Assembly: GCF_025698545.1 (NCBI RefSeq)
Contig: NC_068571.1
Location: 33,761,733-33,825,732, forward strand
Length of the DNA stretch: 64,000 nt
Direction: 5' to 3'
Source of the DNA: Gossypium raimondii
Lineage: Eukaryota; Streptophyta; Magnoliopsida; Malvales; Malvaceae
Shown: one piece after another, positions 24,751 to 64,000 of the stretch
How the letters are laid out: every line of letters begins with the position of its first letter
Position numbering within the stretch: the stretch's first letter is position 1
The notes under the pieces: model-generated
What the model was told of the DNA's origin: nothing
The model's input: the letters and a program-made list of their open reading frames with translations, nothing else
The model's database searches: none
Program-made: the position numbers and the translations under genes

Positions 24751-27700
24751 ATGTCGGTTCTTGCTCTCTTAAATCCCAGGGGTAATTTACTGAATATAAC
24801 TTGCCATTTTTGTTTTGAAATTTAACTATTCATGGTTTCCAATTTGGTTTGCTTGAAAAAAAATCGAGGACTAAGACTAAAGTTATATCTTCATTTTCCT
24901 TCTCATCGTCGATTAAAGATAACCTAGACAAAGAGATGGATTCAGCTCTGTCAACAAGTTCCTGTATTCTTTTATTTTCAATTTTGCTTGTTGCACTTAG
25001 AGATATAAGAAAGGAAAGCTTTCATTGATTCATGCAGTTATTTTGGTTTAGCTGGAAACTTAGTTTTGGGACTGTGAATTGCCTACTAGTTTTTTTTTTT
25101 ATGCTATTATGCTCACTATGTTTTGGGCAAAGAATGAGGAGAAGAAGAAGAAGAACCCTTAAGAGTGAGAGAAGAGAGAAAGAGTTCTAAAGGTAAAAAG
25201 GATTTTTTCAGTAGATAGATTATTTTCACGAAATAGTTGTCGACATTAGCTATATAGGTCCTTGAAAGAAAGAAGGTCGATTATTTTGCAAATAAAGAAG
25301 TATACTTGCATTTCAGTGCATTAGGTTTACATTTTTTTTTGTGGCCAGTCACGTTTGTGATTCACATTTAATTTTTGGAGTTATTATGCATTGTCGCGTA
25401 GACACTGGATTTTTTTATCTGTTATGTGTGTGTATGTATTTATGTACGGTTCCTTGCTTGATTGAGTGTATTCTTTGTATAACATAACAGGAGCGTTGGG
25501 AAATGTCTGTTCATTTTTGGTGAAACTTGTTGTTCTGTGTTGTGCAATTTCCATCACCAATGCTGATTTTTCCGGAAATCTTCAAGTGCCAGCACAATCT
25601 CCCACCACAGCAGCTGAGGGTGTACCAGCTGTTTCTGATCTTCCCTCACCTTCCAATCTGCCATTGGTTCATAGACCAAGCCGAAGACATTTTGCCCCTC
25701 GCAGTGCACCAACACTTGTAGCACCAGCCCAATCTCCTCTTCATGGTCCATTGATAACTGCTGGTCACCCTCCTATCAGTTCACGCCTGTCAAAACCATT
25801 GATGAAGAGGAGTGCGTTGGTGCATCCTGGTATGGGCTTGCCAAATATTGCCCCTACACAGATCAGTGCTGGTCCAATTCCAGCTGGTTTAGCTCAACCA
25901 CCATTGTCTCCTGAAGTGTCCAGTAAGATATTTTCTAAATCATTTTATTACCAACTCTATTATAGTTTCTTCTTTAGGCATTCATTATATATTGCAACTC
26001 TTACATCTTTTACAGCTCTTCTATGCAAGATGTAGTTAGAAGGCAGCATCTTGAGCATTTGTTATTTATATTTATATTCTGTATAAGATGCTTACATGAG
26101 AATTTTCTCACTTGGCCAGATTGTTGCAAACCAGACTCAATTTTGAAACCTGGGACTCATGGTTGTCATTGTGTGTATCCCATAAAGCTTGACCTTCTCC
26201 TTTTAAATGTTTCCCAAAACCCTGATCGTAATGCTTTTCTAGTGGAGTTAACTTCTCAGCTTGATTTGCTGCCTAACCAAATCGAGATTATCAATTTTTA
26301 TGTGCTCAGTTTATCAAGATTAAATATCTCTATGGATATTATTCCGCACACAGGGATCAGTTTCTCTGCCAGTGATGCATCTAAGATAAACTCTTCACTT
26401 GTGATGCATAGGGTTCATTTTGACCCAAATGTAGTTCGGGATTACCAAATCCTTAATTTTACCTGGTTTGAGCCTCCAGCGCCTTCCCCAGGTAACTTAT
26501 GATGCAACCTAAATTCTTCTAGGATCAAATAACTTCAATTTTTTTCTTGATTGGATAATGGATATAGTTCTTATATGCTATAGTTTTCCTGGCATCTCAT
26601 AGCTTACTGTAATTTTATATAGGGAATTATATCTTATTTTATTTGTCCTAACAAAGAAGCATCTTGTTCACAGCTCCCATCGTGGTTTCTAGACCTAGAG
26701 CTGCACCGGCACATCTATCCTCCAATTCTACATTACTTGGCTCTTCAAACAAGGGGAACCATTCAAATTTGATTCTTATTTTTGGTATTTCTGCTGGCAT
26801 ACTGGTTTTTGCTATAATATCAGTGCTTATAATTTGTTCGTGCACATTCCATAAGGGAAAGACAGAAGCATTTCCCAAGGAATCTGGTATGTTTATAAGC
26901 AAAAAAACTATGTCTGTTGGCCTAAGGTTTAAATGTTTTGATTATTTTAATAACATTTGGAACTGGCACTGATCTTGTCCCTAGTTATACGTTGATGAAA
27001 TATGGAATAAGAAAACTCGTTTTTCCCTATCCTTTTCAAGTAGGATGACTGTAATTGCTAACCGAATCTCGTGATTGAGCTGAAAGAAGAGAGGAAGAAA
27101 AAGGTTTCAGAAAACATTAGTGTGCCTGATTTTGCACATCTAGTCACACCTTATGAATGAGATTGCAGATTGATTTTGTGGTATTGTTTTATGTTCAGAT
27201 TCTTGCTGACACTATAAATGGTCTAATCCCCTTGCATTGTTTTTTCAGTAAAGTCAAGGACAACAGATGTAGTTGAGCGAGCAGGATCTTTTCCCCACCC
27301 AAGCAGTACAAGGTTTCTACAGTATGAAGAACTCAAAGAAGCGACAAACAACTTTGCTTCCGCGAGCATACTGGGGGAAGGGGGGTTCGGCAGGGTTTTC
27401 AAGGGTGTTTTAAGTGATGGTACTTCTGTAGCAATTAAAAGGCTTACCAATGGAGGACCACAAGGAGATAAAGAGTTTTTGGTTGAAGTTGAAATGCTTA
27501 GCAGGTTGCATCATCGTAATCTTGTGAAACTTGTAGGTTACTATAGTAGTCGCGACTCTTCACAAAACCTACTTTGTTATGAGCTTGTTCCAAATGGAAG
27601 CTTAGAATCATGGCTCCATGGTATTTTGGCCCTCTAAATTCGACCCCGTGTGCAGCTCATTTGTTGATGTTTTCCTTTTAGCTGCGGTCCATTGTGATAC

Positions 27701-42647: not shown

Positions 42648-43028
42648 ATGGCGACCCTGTTCACTCTTAACTTCGTTACCCCAAGAGCCACCGCCAGCCT
42701 ACGAGACTCCACCAAGGGTAGCCCCATCAAGGTCCCATACCTTAACCAGCCATGGAAAAGGGTATTGTCCCCGTTGGAATCCAGGCGGATGCAGGTGAGA
42801 GCTGCACCTGATAGCTTATCGGAGAAGGTGGAGCAGAGCATCAAGGAAGCACAAGAGGCGTGCTCGGATGACCCGGCTAGCGGAGAGTGCGTGGCGGCTT
42901 GGGACGAGGTGGAAGAACTGAGTGCAGCAGCCAGCCACGCCAGGGATAGGCTGAAAGATAACGATCCTCTCGAGAATTACTGCAAAGACAACCCCGAGAC
43001 TGATGAATGCAAAACTTATGATAATTGA
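42648..43028 (+). CDS. CP12: CP12, chloroplast regulator of GAPDH and phosphoribulokinase
   Basis: Single-exon 126-codon frame. Residues 1 to about 50 are a Ser/Thr/Arg-rich chloroplast transit peptide; the mature part begins near VRAAPDSLSEKVEQ. Both redox-active cysteine pairs are present: Cys72/Cys81 (ACSDDPASGEC) and Cys112/Cys121 (YCKDNPETDEC). The AWDEVEELSAAASHAR helix binds phosphoribulokinase and the C-terminal ...ECKTYDN tail enters GAPDH. In the dark the oxidised protein ties glyceraldehyde-3-phosphate dehydrogenase and phosphoribulokinase into an inactive complex; thioredoxin reduction in light releases them. Length and motifs fit canonical CP12-1/CP12-2 rather than the divergent CP12-3. 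Confidence 0.96.
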   Translation: MATLFTLNFVTPRATASLRDSTKGSPIKVPYLNQPWKRVLSPLESRRMQVRAAPDSLSEKVEQSIKEAQEACSDDPASGECVAAWDEVEELSAAASHARDRLKDNDPLENYCKDNPETDECKTYDN

Positions 43029-43930: not shown

Positions 43931-46900
43931 CTCTACTATATCAATTAAAAATATAATCATTATTGATATATAAACTTTTTTATATAAAATAAAATTGTTA
44001 GATATATTTTTAGAAAAGTCAAGAAAAAAAACAATTTGTTAGAATTTCCGTTTTTTGTCAAGTACTATATGTTGATAAAAGGTACAATAAGGGGGTAGGA
44101 CGAGGAACAAGTGCCACAGGTTGCAGATCAAAGCCCGAGATGAATGCGCACAAAGCTTCTTATGAAGATTAATTGATTAATGGGGTGCATTTAATCCACT
44201 TGAATTGTCCAATTTGTGGAACATATGGAGAAACTCATTTACTTGAAGCCTTAATGGCCTAGTAAAATATTTCAGTAAAACTAGAGTTACTAGGGTAATT
44301 ATTGTAAATTCTAAAAGATAAGAATGTATAGAGTTTAAATCTCTTAAGACTCTCATCTTGTAGATAGACACTAATATTAATTGTTGATGTAATTCAATCT
44401 GTACCGTTGGATTTGGAGAGTTCAACTAAACTCAATTGTAGATGGACTTGGTGTGCATTGCTTTATTGTGGATTTTCAGTTCTTTCGAGCTCATTTGTCT
44501 TTTGAGTTTGCTTCCACTATATTTTAACACCTTAGAGAATTTTATTGAGAACTCTCATCTTTCGAGACTTAAGCTGACTTAGACAGATTTGATGCTAAGA
44601 AATCGCATAAAGCCACAAGGTTTGATAGACTTAAGTTTTAGCCCCGTGACACAATGAAGAGATTAAGGTAGTGTAACAGAAGTCAATTCACTTAAAGAGG
44701 TCGAGAGTCAGAACAAGGACAAGAGAATAGGTCGATCAAGAAAACAATTGCTCGTAATAACTTCAGAATATTAAAAATTAATGTTGAACGTATATCATGA
44801 GACTTTATCACTATCAAGTTATCTAAATGTACTGTTTATTATAATACATTTTCCTTTGTTTTTTTATATATTTAATAAAGTTGAATTTCTCATTTTAAAG
44901 TCAGAGAAAGAAAGAAAGCACATAAAGATTCTTAGCCAAATCATTTTCTTATCTTATGGGATTAATATTATATTTATTCCAACTTCAACGCGGCGCGTGG
45001 ACGACTGGCAACAGTGTCATCCAAATTAAGATGCATGATGATGAAAAGAAGGTTCTACAGCAAACCGTAAAATCTATCTATTTATCGGGTAATAAATATA
45101 TAAAAGTTAATTGATTATTTAATTATATTAATAGATTTTTTATTGTAAATGGACTATAAATTTTATTCATTTATTATATAAAATAAAATATTTTTTATAA
45201 AATACTAGAAATTTTATTGTATGTTTGGGACGTAAAAGTATGTTTAAATAATAAAAATGGTTTGGAACTAATTAATAATAATACATTAAATATGTACAAT
45301 ATTAAAATAAAAAATAGATTAAAATTTAAATAAAATAAAATTTAAATACAAATACATTATATTAAGAATACTAAATGAATACAATTATTTATTATAGTTT
45401 TATCATCAAACCTAAATTGATGTCGAGTTCATTTGTGACGCTAACTCATTCAACAACATTATTAACATACACAAATATACTCATTGAAGTTTCGTATAAA
45501 AATAAAAAAATGTTTCGATTTAAATAGTAAATGAAAAAACTTTACATATATGGTGTCCTTGGTTCTAATCTCATTGTGGACAAAGTTTTATTGATTTATA
45601 AAAATATAAAAAAGGTAAAGACATCCACATAATCATATAATATATAAGTTGGCCCCTCAAATTTACCATTTGCTCCCTAAACTTGTATTCGGTCAATCAG
45701 GTTTGTTTCTCCACACTAACCCCATTAGTTTGTGCAGATATAAAATTTCTAATCAATCTGGTGATGCCAAATGTATCAGGATGCTACATGGCAAGCATAA
45801 TTTGTATATTCATATTTGTCATGTGACAATCACCATCGAATTAACTAGCAATGTCACATTAGCACAATTAACAGTGTTAGTGTAAAGATATCAATAACGG
45901 ATAAGTTTAGGGGTCAGAGTATATAGTAAGATAATTTTTTGATAATTTCTTAACTGAATTGAATTAAGACTCAATCCGATCCAATAAAAGAATGTTGTTA
46001 TAGATACAGAGGTTATATGAGTATTAATTAAGGTTTGCCTTACGTTGTTTTTGCCTACGCAACAGCTATTATTATGTTTACCTAACGTGTTTATGTCGAA
46101 ATTGAGAAAATCGTATAAATAATGGAGGGTGGATCAATCAAACGTGATTAATATGCCAATTCCTCTCACCCATTTTTGATTGAATCAGTCAACAAAATAC
46201 AAAAGCCTTCTAGAAGTCGGTAGGAAACAGCAGTGGATCCATCATCTCTATCAACAAAACAATATTTCCAGCATTCACACAATTGAAGGAAGAAACTCAT
46301 ATCGTTTCAAATTTATCAACATTTAATATATTTAAATATAAAAATATTAATTAATTATATATAATAATCATCAATTTAAACAACTAAATTATTCAATCTA
46401 CAATAATATCAAGTTCATGAAACTTTTAAAAATTATTTTTAATTAATTTTTTGCTATATAAATTCTTTAATCATTAATTATTTATTAATTTATCTACTTT
46501 AAATTTTAAAATTTACTTTCCCTTAATTAGACTTCAAATTTTAAAGGTAATATAATATGAAAAATTGAAGTTAGTAACAAACATAAATTTATATATTTTT
46601 AACAGTCAATACAATCGAACAAACCAATACAACTGATAGAAATCGGAATTTTCATTTACCCAGTAAAGAGAAATGACTGTTTCAATTTATTATCGAAACG
46701 GTGCGTACGGGACGATGCAACCAAAACCTGCTACATTCGACAATTGAATATTCAATAACCCTTATCGACACTGAAGAATCATAGCAGCTTTTCAGCTAAA
46801 CACAATGTTTATGATTCCAAAATCGACACATAAATCACAAAGAAATTGACAATAAAAGTGCAAGCATTGAAATCCAAAACTAACATTCCATAGTAGAAAT

Positions 46901-47081
46901 CCACGAGTACAGAAAACGGAAACACACCAAAGGGTTTCTACAAAACCAAAAATCCCAATTCAGCAGACTCCACATAACATTACGACACCCTTACATAAAT
47001 CTAATTAACAGCACAAACTGACTCCAACAGAAGGACGGACTCACATTAGCTCCAACAAGGAAGACAGCTTTAATTATTCCA
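43931..47081. other. AT-rich spacer between CP12 and the bZIP gene
   Basis: No gene recognised. Sequence at about 44037-44780 has a more complex composition and may be an old retroelement fragment, but no termini or frames support that. At 45640-45910 a repeat-like block reads GGCCCCTCAAATTTACCATT and later TAAGTTTAGGGGTCAGAG, possibly opposite ends of a small MITE. The last 350 bp is the 3' untranslated region of the minus-strand bZIP gene. Confidence 0.45.
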
Positions 47082-47495
47082 TCAACACTCAAACATATCG
47101 GCCAAAGCCATAATTGGTTGTACTGGACAAGGGATCTGCCACGGTTTCATCAGAGGATCTGGAATCTCCGGTATATCAACGGCATACCCACTGACTTCTT
47201 CAACAATGTGCAACACCGAGTTCAGGGACCGCAATCGCTCGGTCAATTCCATTGCCTGAGCTCTCAACACGTTGTTGGCACATTCCATCTCGGCGTAGCG
47301 CTGAGTTGCGACGTTGATCTTTTCGGAGAGCTGGCTGTTATCTTTCTGCAATGCGCTCACTTCATTAACCAAATCCTCGAGCTGCTTCTGCTTCCTAATA
47401 CGCGACCGCCTCGCGGATTCACGGTTCGACAGCATTCTCTTCCTTTTCCTCTCGTCGGAATCAGAAGAACTCGCTGGCCTTTGCACAGCAGCCAT
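47082..47495 (-). CDS. BZIP53: Group S1 bZIP transcription factor, bZIP53-like
   Basis: Intronless 137-codon gene, as expected for group S1. The basic region (about 16-38) contains the invariant N-x7-R as NRESARRSR (Asn24, Arg32). A heptad leucine zipper follows from about Leu42 through residue 95. The C-terminal part ([26 protein letters not shown]...ADMFEC) matches bZIP53 rather than bZIP11, bZIP2 or bZIP44, whose tails differ. Group S1 proteins bind ACGT/ACTCAT elements as heterodimers with group C bZIPs. They reprogram amino-acid and carbon metabolism under low energy and drive seed-maturation genes. The leader carries the sucrose-control uORF described separately, so translation should fall when sucrose is high. 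The frame on the opposite strand (47118-47555) is a shadow of this gene. Confidence 0.95.
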
Positions 47496-47633
47496 AGGAG
47501 AAAAGTTTTTTTTTTTTATCCGGGAAGAGTATTTAAATTGGAATTAACAAATTGAATGACAACTAGAGATTTGAAGTTTTCAATAGTCGGGTTAGATCAA
47601 AATAAGAAGATTGATGAACAAAGAGGTGCTAAT

Positions 47634-47717
47634 TCATGAGAAAACGTAGAACCAGTAAAGGAAGACGACCGAGAACGAGTGAAGAATACGGATTCGACGC
47701 ATGAGGATAGAGTTCAT
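47634..47717 (-). CDS. Sucrose-control uORF (SC peptide) of the bZIP mRNA
   Basis: A 27-codon frame in the bZIP leader, ending 138 nt before the main ATG. Its C-terminal half reads HSFSVVFLYWFYVFS, the conserved tail of the SC peptide of group S1 bZIP leaders. In Arabidopsis this peptide stalls ribosomes when sucrose is high and represses the downstream bZIP. The N-terminal part is short, starting MNSILMRRIRIL, and a second in-frame Met is at position 6. The start overlaps the stop of a preceding 6-codon uORF in an ATGA. The exact initiation codon is inferred. Confidence 0.93.
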   Translation of the reverse strand: MNSILMRRIRILHSFSVVFLYWFYVFS

Positions 47718-47734
47718 AGAAAATCTAAAATCAT
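47714..47734 (-). promoter_or_regulatory. Six-codon uORF (MILDFL) overlapping the SC-uORF start
   Basis: ATGATTTTAGATTTTCTATGA on the minus strand, written here split as MILDFL plus stop. Its TGA shares ATGA with the ATG of the SC-uORF (47714-47717). Its own ATG shares ATGA with the stop of the uORF before it (47731-47734). A ribosome finishing it would be positioned directly at the SC-uORF start. Confidence 0.7.
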
Positions 47735-47772
47735 TGAAACGGTTTTACGAACTGCAGATCGGACATGCACAT
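47731..47772 (-). promoter_or_regulatory. Thirteen-codon uORF at the head of the uORF chain
   Basis: Starts at the ATG at 47772 (minus strand), with a second in-frame ATG two codons later. It encodes MCMSDLQFVKPFQ and ends in a TGA overlapping the next ATG. It lies inside the predicted transcript, about 200 nt after the likely cap site. The peptide resembles nothing I know, so its arrangement matters more than its sequence. Confidence 0.6.
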
Positions 47773-48003
47773 AAACAGCCGAGCAGTAACAAAGAACCAA
47801 AAGAAACCCTAGATCTAAACCAGATCTAAACGAAGAATTTTTTAATAAAAAAACGGAGACAAGCAAGCAAGGAAGGAAGGAAGAAGAAAACTGAGAATAC
47901 TTAGCTGGATGGAAAAGGGGACGCGAAGAGAGAGCGAGAGTAGAAGACACGCACGCGACCAAAAGCGAAACGAAAGAAGGTCTAAAAGGGAGGTGGGAAA
48001 GGG

Positions 48004-48011
48004 TTTTTATA
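48004..48011 (-). promoter_or_regulatory. TATA box of the bZIP gene
   Basis: TATAAAAA on the minus strand in a GC-balanced context (CCTATAAAAACCC). A start site about 30 bp downstream would give a leader of roughly 480 nt, long enough to hold the three uORFs. It also places the ATG at 48016 upstream of the transcript, so the apparent 100-codon frame there is probably not translated as a whole. Confidence 0.65.
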
Positions 48012-49239
48012 GGCAAAGGAGTGGAGTGACGGGTTGGTTGCTTTGGTTAGTTTTTCTTTCTGGTTACCATTGCTTTGGTTAGGTTAGTTGAAAAATAATT
48101 TTAAAAAATAGTACGGTATTGGAGATGGAAGGGTATTTTAGTCTTTTGACTAGTTAGCTTTTGAAACAAGGAGTGCGTTCGGTGTCACCGCCAGCTATGC
48201 ATTCAACACGTTCTTGCAGTCCTCTTTACTCAAAATTTTAAAAAGGGTATTTTACACGTTGGATCCAATGTAGTGAAAAAAATTTCAAGTTAATTGAATT
48301 GATGAGTTCTATTTTATCATATTATCTCGATTTAAAATTTTTTAAATTGAACCGAGTGAAATGAAATTCAAATCGAATCGAATCGCATCGAGTTAAACTA
48401 AAAATTAAACATGTTCAATTAAAATTTTATTACGGTATAACTAATTTTATATTAAAACACATCAATTTAAAACTATATATATTTGAAAATTTTTCCAAAG
48501 CAAAATAAGGAAAAGAATAAGATATTTTAGTAAGATAAACTTGAATCATTAATTAACTTATTTAGGTCTCAAATTTATTATTTTATAAAATTTTAAAATT
48601 TTGCTCTCTTTATATTTTTTATAATTTTTAAAATTTTTATATTTTAAAAATGTAAATTTTGAAATTTTTAAAATATTATAAATTTTAAAAATTATTTTAT
48701 AATTTTTGTTGAAAAAGAGAACAATTTGTTCATTTTCAAAATTGATAGGGGCCAAAGGGGTATTTACACCAATTTATTATTCAAATTATAAAATTCAACT
48801 TGACTCGAACTCAAAACTCGAATTACTTATTCGAGTTAACTCGAAACACTTATTTGAGATAACTCAAAAAAAGTAAACAACTCAATTTGATTAACTTGAA
48901 ATTCAATTTTTTCGAATCAAATCGAGTTTTACTCAACCTAGTGCTAAGAATCTAACCTCAACACATGTTGGAACAAAGGCGAAAGACTAGGATAAAGACT
49001 AGGATACGAAAAGCATTATCTTTCTATTAAAAATCTAACAAGGATGACTAAAATATTTAATTTTAAAAATTTAGTGATTAAATTGAAAACGTTAGGGTAA
49101 ACTGTTTAATTGGTCACTCAATTTTTAAGACGCTTTTATTTTGGTCATACAAAAAAATTTATTGCAAATTCATCACCTACCTTTTAGGAAGTTTTCAATT
49201 TAGTCACCCAAGTATTAAATCCTTAACAACAACTTATTG

Positions 49240-54046: not shown

Positions 54047-64000
<9,954 letters not shown>

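Follow-up and report, generated by a model that had tools for sequence, protein, structure and literature searches.

A six-codon uORF that ends on the start codon of the sucrose-control uORF is conserved among bZIP53-like genes of Gossypium raimondii and probably sets ribosome entry into the sensor

The leader of a bZIP53-like gene on the minus strand of the window (the whole 64,000-nucleotide stretch of Gossypium raimondii DNA analyzed here) carries the known sucrose-control uORF (SC-uORF), and a uORF of six codons ends exactly on its start, the stop and start codons overlapping as ATGA. Since this six-codon uORF has been kept in the four closest copies of the gene, it probably controls the number of ribosomes that reach the sensor, most likely by diverting some of them past the SC-uORF. 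That it is an entry gate whose users bypass the SC-uORF and reinitiate at the bZIP ORF is the reading towards which we lean, if only slightly.

Features of the locus were read directly from the sequence, with a Pfam match for the main ORF and conservation among paralogs for the six-codon uORF:

47082 to 47495, minus strand: main ORF, a bZIP53-like group S1 bZIP of 137 amino acids in a single open frame (Pfam bZIP_1)
47629 to 47637, minus strand: two-codon uORF (Met-Asn), its stop TAG ending at 47629
47634 to 47717, minus strand: SC-uORF, 27 codons, MNSILMRRIRILHSFSVVFLYWFYVFS, with a second in-frame ATG at 47702-47700
47714 to 47734, minus strand: six-codon uORF MILDFL, the proposed gate
47731 to 47772, minus strand: 13-codon uORF, MCMSDLQFVKPFQ, with a second in-frame ATG at 47766
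48004 to 48011, minus strand: TATA-like box, TATAAAAA

Judged by its sequence, the main ORF encodes a small group S1 bZIP. It matched Pfam bZIP_1 (E 1.2e-11), and among three Arabidopsis proteins compared, AtbZIP53 fitted best (66%); the names group S1 and bZIP53-like rest on this comparison. In a rough tree, the window bZIP clustered with the SC-bearing genes of the genome and separately from 12 other bZIPs. Its nearest confirmed neighbor is a CP12 family ORF (window 42648-43028, plus strand; Pfam CP12, E 3.8e-26). Two further plus-strand ORFs of the window, at 26023-26502 and 54047-54463, matched Pfam ALE2_N (receptor-like kinase) and BRWD1_N, respectively, and each is probably an exon of a larger gene.

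The TATA-like box suggests a transcript start near 47980, which would lie upstream of all six uATGs. Not one of these six, all below the TATA-like site, carries a purine at −3 or G at +4. Such a context is seen at a seventh ATG, 48070, which is located above that site. At the main ATG (47495), position −3 is C and position +4 is G.

The earlier note had described a minus-strand chain of 13-, 6-, and 27-codon uORFs linked by ATGA, and direct reading confirmed both junctions: the stop of the 13-codon uORF overlaps the start of the six-codon uORF at 47731-47734, and the stop of the latter overlaps the SC start at 47714-47717. What that description had missed is a third ATGA at 47634-47637, where the SC stop overlaps the start of the two-codon uORF (47637). 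Overlapping stop and start codons, a feature of coupled termination-reinitiation sites, are present three times as ATGA. The 13-codon uORF stops 13 nt before the SC start. Measured from the end of the six-codon uORF, the second SC ATG lies 11 nt on, the two-codon uORF 76 nt on, and the main ATG 218 nt on. Starting at the second SC ATG gives a peptide of 22 residues.

We identify the 27-codon uORF as the known SC-uORF because of its tail, its critical residues, and the bZIP53-like main ORF. The earlier identification of the tail was borne out: SFSVVFLYWFYVFS directly precedes the stop, which stands at its usual place after ...YVFS. The uORF contains SFSVVFLYWFY, with two Ser, Leu, and Tyr at the places needed for sucrose repression if the AtbZIP11 peptide has 42 residues. 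The bZIP11 uORF2 stop codon is reportedly a site of ribosome stalling, as the title of Yamashita et al. 2017 has it. Stalling at that stop codon is also cited in PMC11120861, and sucrose repression in AtbZIP11 is described as needing Ser-29, Ser-31, Leu-35, and Tyr-39 (PMC4960570). From the kind of gene, translation of the main ORF in the window is predicted to be repressed by sucrose. The suggestion in the earlier note that the peptide tail carries the function is right but already known (PMC8795868, PMC1896003). Nor is the short SC N terminus a novelty, the SC peptide having been described as 28 residues long (PMC8795868) and the second-AUG form, uORF2b, as responsible in AtbZip11 (PMC1896003).

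The window gene shares the SC tail with its stop, a group S1 main ORF, a long leader with multiple uORFs, and two in-frame SC ATGs with the known group S1 SC-uORF genes, i.e., AtbZIP11/ATB2, AtbZIP53, tobacco tbz17, and strawberry FvebZIPs1.1. The AtbZIP11 leader is described as carrying uORFs 1, 2 (2a and 2b), 3, and 4, with uAUG1 and uAUG2a weak (PMC3020687). Unlike the window gene, the known S1 leaders, in the passages covered, are not described as having a short uORF that ends exactly on the SC start.

A protein search of the genome (750.8 Mb, 281 contigs) identified 26 bZIP loci (L009 to L034), of which 14 (L009 to L022) have an SC-like motif and 12 do not, and the leaders of the 14 SC-bearing loci were read. 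A loose pattern for the SC tail had 53 genome matches versus 95 for the reversed control; 13 of the 53 are the tails of L009 to L021. Four loci are bZIP53-like, namely the window gene (L009) and its paralogs L010, L011, and L012, so that the comparison lies within one genome; synonymous divergence among the four spans Ks 0.60 to 1.04. All four retain the six-codon uORF and the ATGA on the SC start, the encoded peptide being MILDFL in L009, L010, and L012 and MILGVQ in L011. The ATGA at the SC stop is found in three genes and is missing in L011, which has lost the SC stop, its frame continuing for 11 codons, and has retained the junction at the SC start; we count this loss against the gate. The earlier note had looked to conservation of both upstream junctions, and among these paralogs it holds fully for the six-codon/SC junction and in only two of the four (L009 and L010) for the 13-codon-type junction into the six-codon uORF. 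An equal role for the two upstream uORFs was rejected for that reason. The sequence from the second ATG of the 13-codon uORF on, ATGTCCGATCTG, is common to L009, L010, and L011; in L011 the ATG that opens it gives just a four-codon uORF with no junction.

Aligned four ways, the genes have in common a block that runs from the six-codon ATG to the SC stop. Over the 21 nt of the six-codon uORF, 16 to 21 positions are identical pairwise, versus 6 to 14 of the preceding 40 (ungapped). The shared block argues for the six-codon uORF and the SC-uORF being parts of one leader unit and says little for the 13-codon uORF. SC codon 2 is AAC, AGC, AGT, and AGA in L009 to L012, respectively, and AAC in L022; its residue varies and its first base, the A that completes the TGA of the six-codon uORF, is invariant. 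Several observations count against the gate. Conservation is wider than the six-codon uORF, L009 and L010 having other leader stretches in common and L009 to L011 also sharing part of the sequence after the SC stop, and L011 adds three nonsynonymous differences within the six codons. The block is not a dispersed repeat, because four of the five genome matches to its 21-nt pattern (none for the reversed control) are these leaders and the fifth (C8, L039) has no SC tail in the following 400 nt and no bZIP match above noise in 3 kb.

Conservation of the 17 bases before the SC ATG might instead serve the SC start context, ribosome placement, or a non-ATG N-terminal extension of the SC peptide, with the short frame as a by-product. 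The block is short and holds few informative changes, and in none of the four genes does a stop interrupt the SC frame within it. This explanation nonetheless strikes us as improbable, given that the ATG, the six-codon length, and the stop-completing A are all kept in the four genes and that both changes separating L009, L010, and L012 within the six codons are synonymous in the uORF frame and residue-changing in the SC frame (DFRFS versus DIRFF).

The overlaps could also be accidents, functionless and simply inherited by old duplicates. A single exact ATGA junction at the SC start with A at +4 is not rare, having a chance of 13 to 16% per gene; the third junction requires merely a TCA serine codon followed by TGA; and the 13-codon junction is kept in just half of the four genes. 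Against this stands the survival of the frame in all four at their divergence: in a neutral star-tree Jukes-Cantor simulation (branches 0.30 to 0.40), which is post hoc, ignores indels, and starts from a composite ancestor, the frame was retained in all four in 0.1 to 0.6% of cases, and 11 of 17 columns are invariant versus 3.8 to 5.5 expected (P 0.0006 to 0.0074). We therefore regard mere accident as very improbable. The chain as a whole is unusual, with three links in 0 of 5,000 first-order Markov leaders and two links as the longest chain in 11 of 5,000; among 522 overlapping tiles of 488 nt taken from both strands of the window, two links were reached in 15 and three in one. However, the chain was picked post hoc as odd, and the choice of the window-wide and neutral tests likewise followed sight of the feature, so that conservation among the paralogs is the stronger evidence.

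How, then, might the six-codon uORF act? Because the start codons stand in weak contexts, scanning ribosomes would be split among them. Those that miss the six-codon start may begin the SC-uORF and stall at its stop at high sucrose. Those that translate the six codons would terminate at the SC start with no new initiator tRNA bound and would move past the first SC ATG, which overlaps their stop, as well as the second, 11 nt farther along. The 218 nt that separate them from the main ATG could allow them to regain the tRNA and reinitiate at the bZIP ORF, and the two-codon uORF, 76 nt on, may catch some of them. The share of ribosomes avoiding the sensor would keep some bZIP made at high sucrose, and loading of the sensor would be limited. 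Where present, the 13-codon junction might provide another route around the sensor, with the 13-codon uORF stopping 13 nt short of the SC start.

Passage over the SC ATGs is what the published spacing would lead one to expect. With a simplified uORF cluster derived from bZIP11, wild-type Arabidopsis is described as reinitiating at spacers of at least 50 nt (PMC3020687); as the six-codon uORF leaves no spacer, ribosomes terminating on it should pass both SC ATGs. According to a review, ordinary reinitiation is likewise probably ruled out by a one-base overlap (PMC5972666). In the viral UL4 stalling leader, an upstream uORF is described as siphoning ribosomes off the stalling uORF, repression being slightly lower (PMC9648851). 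Bypass is complicated by a report that removal of uORF2b in Arabidopsis lowered reporter output in the wild type (PMC1896003).

The earlier note had given the overlaps the opposite sign, as a hand-off in which ribosomes ending the six-codon (and the 13-codon) uORF immediately begin again at the overlapping ATG and feed the sensor by a backup route. Here it was probably wrong, our analysis favoring bypass, and we consider such restart unlikely. It could serve a weak SC start that might otherwise be missed, and it has parallels: in coupled termination-reinitiation (caliciviruses and others) stop and start codons overlap likewise, AUGA being among the formats listed for true restart sites, which we count against bypass, and with DENR-MCT-1 a spacer might not be needed (PMC5972666). 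However, the well-studied cases are viral cistrons that follow other ORFs and are helped by upstream elements, and no such element was found in the window leader by folding or Rfam search: folding of 47600-47800 gave no support for a strong RNA structure at the junction (z −1.30; 15 of 200 shuffles at least as stable), and 46900-48200 had no match to a known RNA family in Rfam. The spacer requirement and UL4 siphoning, together with the plant precedent of this geometry, the AdoMetDC leader, make bypass the better reading.

In AdoMetDC leaders, a tiny uORF and the sensor uORF have one base in common, and translation of the former is described as keeping ribosomes off the latter (PMC7503886), an effect elsewhere called controversial (PMC2527020). 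The one-base overlap is present in three of the four AdoMetDC leaders of this genome, the exception being L036, where a five-codon uORF crosses the sensor start. The AdoMetDC and bZIP53-like leaders, found in the same genome, thus share a design in which a tiny uORF abuts a metabolite-sensing conserved-peptide uORF, its stop overlapping the latter's start, as seen in all four bZIP53-like leaders. They differ in the overlap, one base (TAATG) after two codons in AdoMetDC versus ATGA after six codons here, and in what is sensed and controlled, i.e., polyamine and an enzyme gene versus sucrose and a transcription factor. With an SC peptide and a bZIP instead of the AdoMetDC peptide and main ORF, the window gene does not belong to the AdoMetDC class proper. 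Without being a member, the bZIP53-like pair may work like the AdoMetDC pair, and from this likeness translation of the six-codon uORF is predicted to lower that of the SC-uORF.

Related arrangements occur in the wider S1 family. L022, sister to the bZIP53-like clade (support 0.91 in the rough tree), is nearest to AtbZIP1 by a narrow margin (87.0 bits versus 81.6 for AtbZIP53); in its leader a two-codon uORF ends in ATGA on a diverged SC start, which may be coincidence since its chance is 13%. L022 also has, some 235 to 194 nt upstream of the main ATG, two copies of ATGATATGAA, each a two-codon uORF ending in ATGA, the second of which opens the SC-like uORF. Among the nine bZIP11-like genes (L013 to L021), seven have a uORF that crosses the SC start and ends no more than 45 nt after it, L015 and L021 being the two without. 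Six of these seven have the stop of the crossing uORF 14 to 17 nt past the SC start; in the seventh, L014, it overlaps the second SC ATG as ATGA. Overall, a uORF terminates on the SC start or no more than 45 nt past it in 12 of the 14 SC-bearing genes versus 3.98 expected from randomized leaders, but the genes are paralogs and hence not 14 independent trials. It is thus a tentative suggestion, one that we would not yet call probable, that a short uORF opening upstream and ending on or just after the SC start is a guard common to group S1 (exact ATGA in all five bZIP53/bZIP1-like genes, crossing in seven of nine bZIP11-like genes), and that the sucrose and polyamine sensor uORFs, of unrelated families, share a gate design.

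The SC end itself is altered in five of the 14 S1 genes: L011 and L013 have lost the stop and continue in frame, L015 and L021 carry a modified tail, and in L022 the tail has diverged and is four residues longer. These genes seem to offer natural variation for learning which copies are still repressed by sucrose. In L016 and L017 the SC peptides end YWLYYVS instead of YWFYVFS, with the stop position retained.

The SC-uORF itself is known; the short uORF ending on its start in bZIP53-like genes appears to be new, though an earlier description is possible. Our literature search, which covered passages of the papers' text, returned no description of such a uORF. The same passages gave no account of what sets the number of ribosomes entering the SC-uORF or of how bZIP53 stays expressed at high sugar. 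A conserved gate uORF makes ribosome entry into the SC-uORF testable by a single start-codon change. If the proposal is true, the gate would be a second tuning point for S1 bZIP output, beside the SC-uORF edits described in strawberry (PMC7470447). If the shared design also holds, a tiny gate uORF would set the share of ribosomes immune to the metabolite in both families, suggesting a shared rule for plant metabolite-sensing uORFs.
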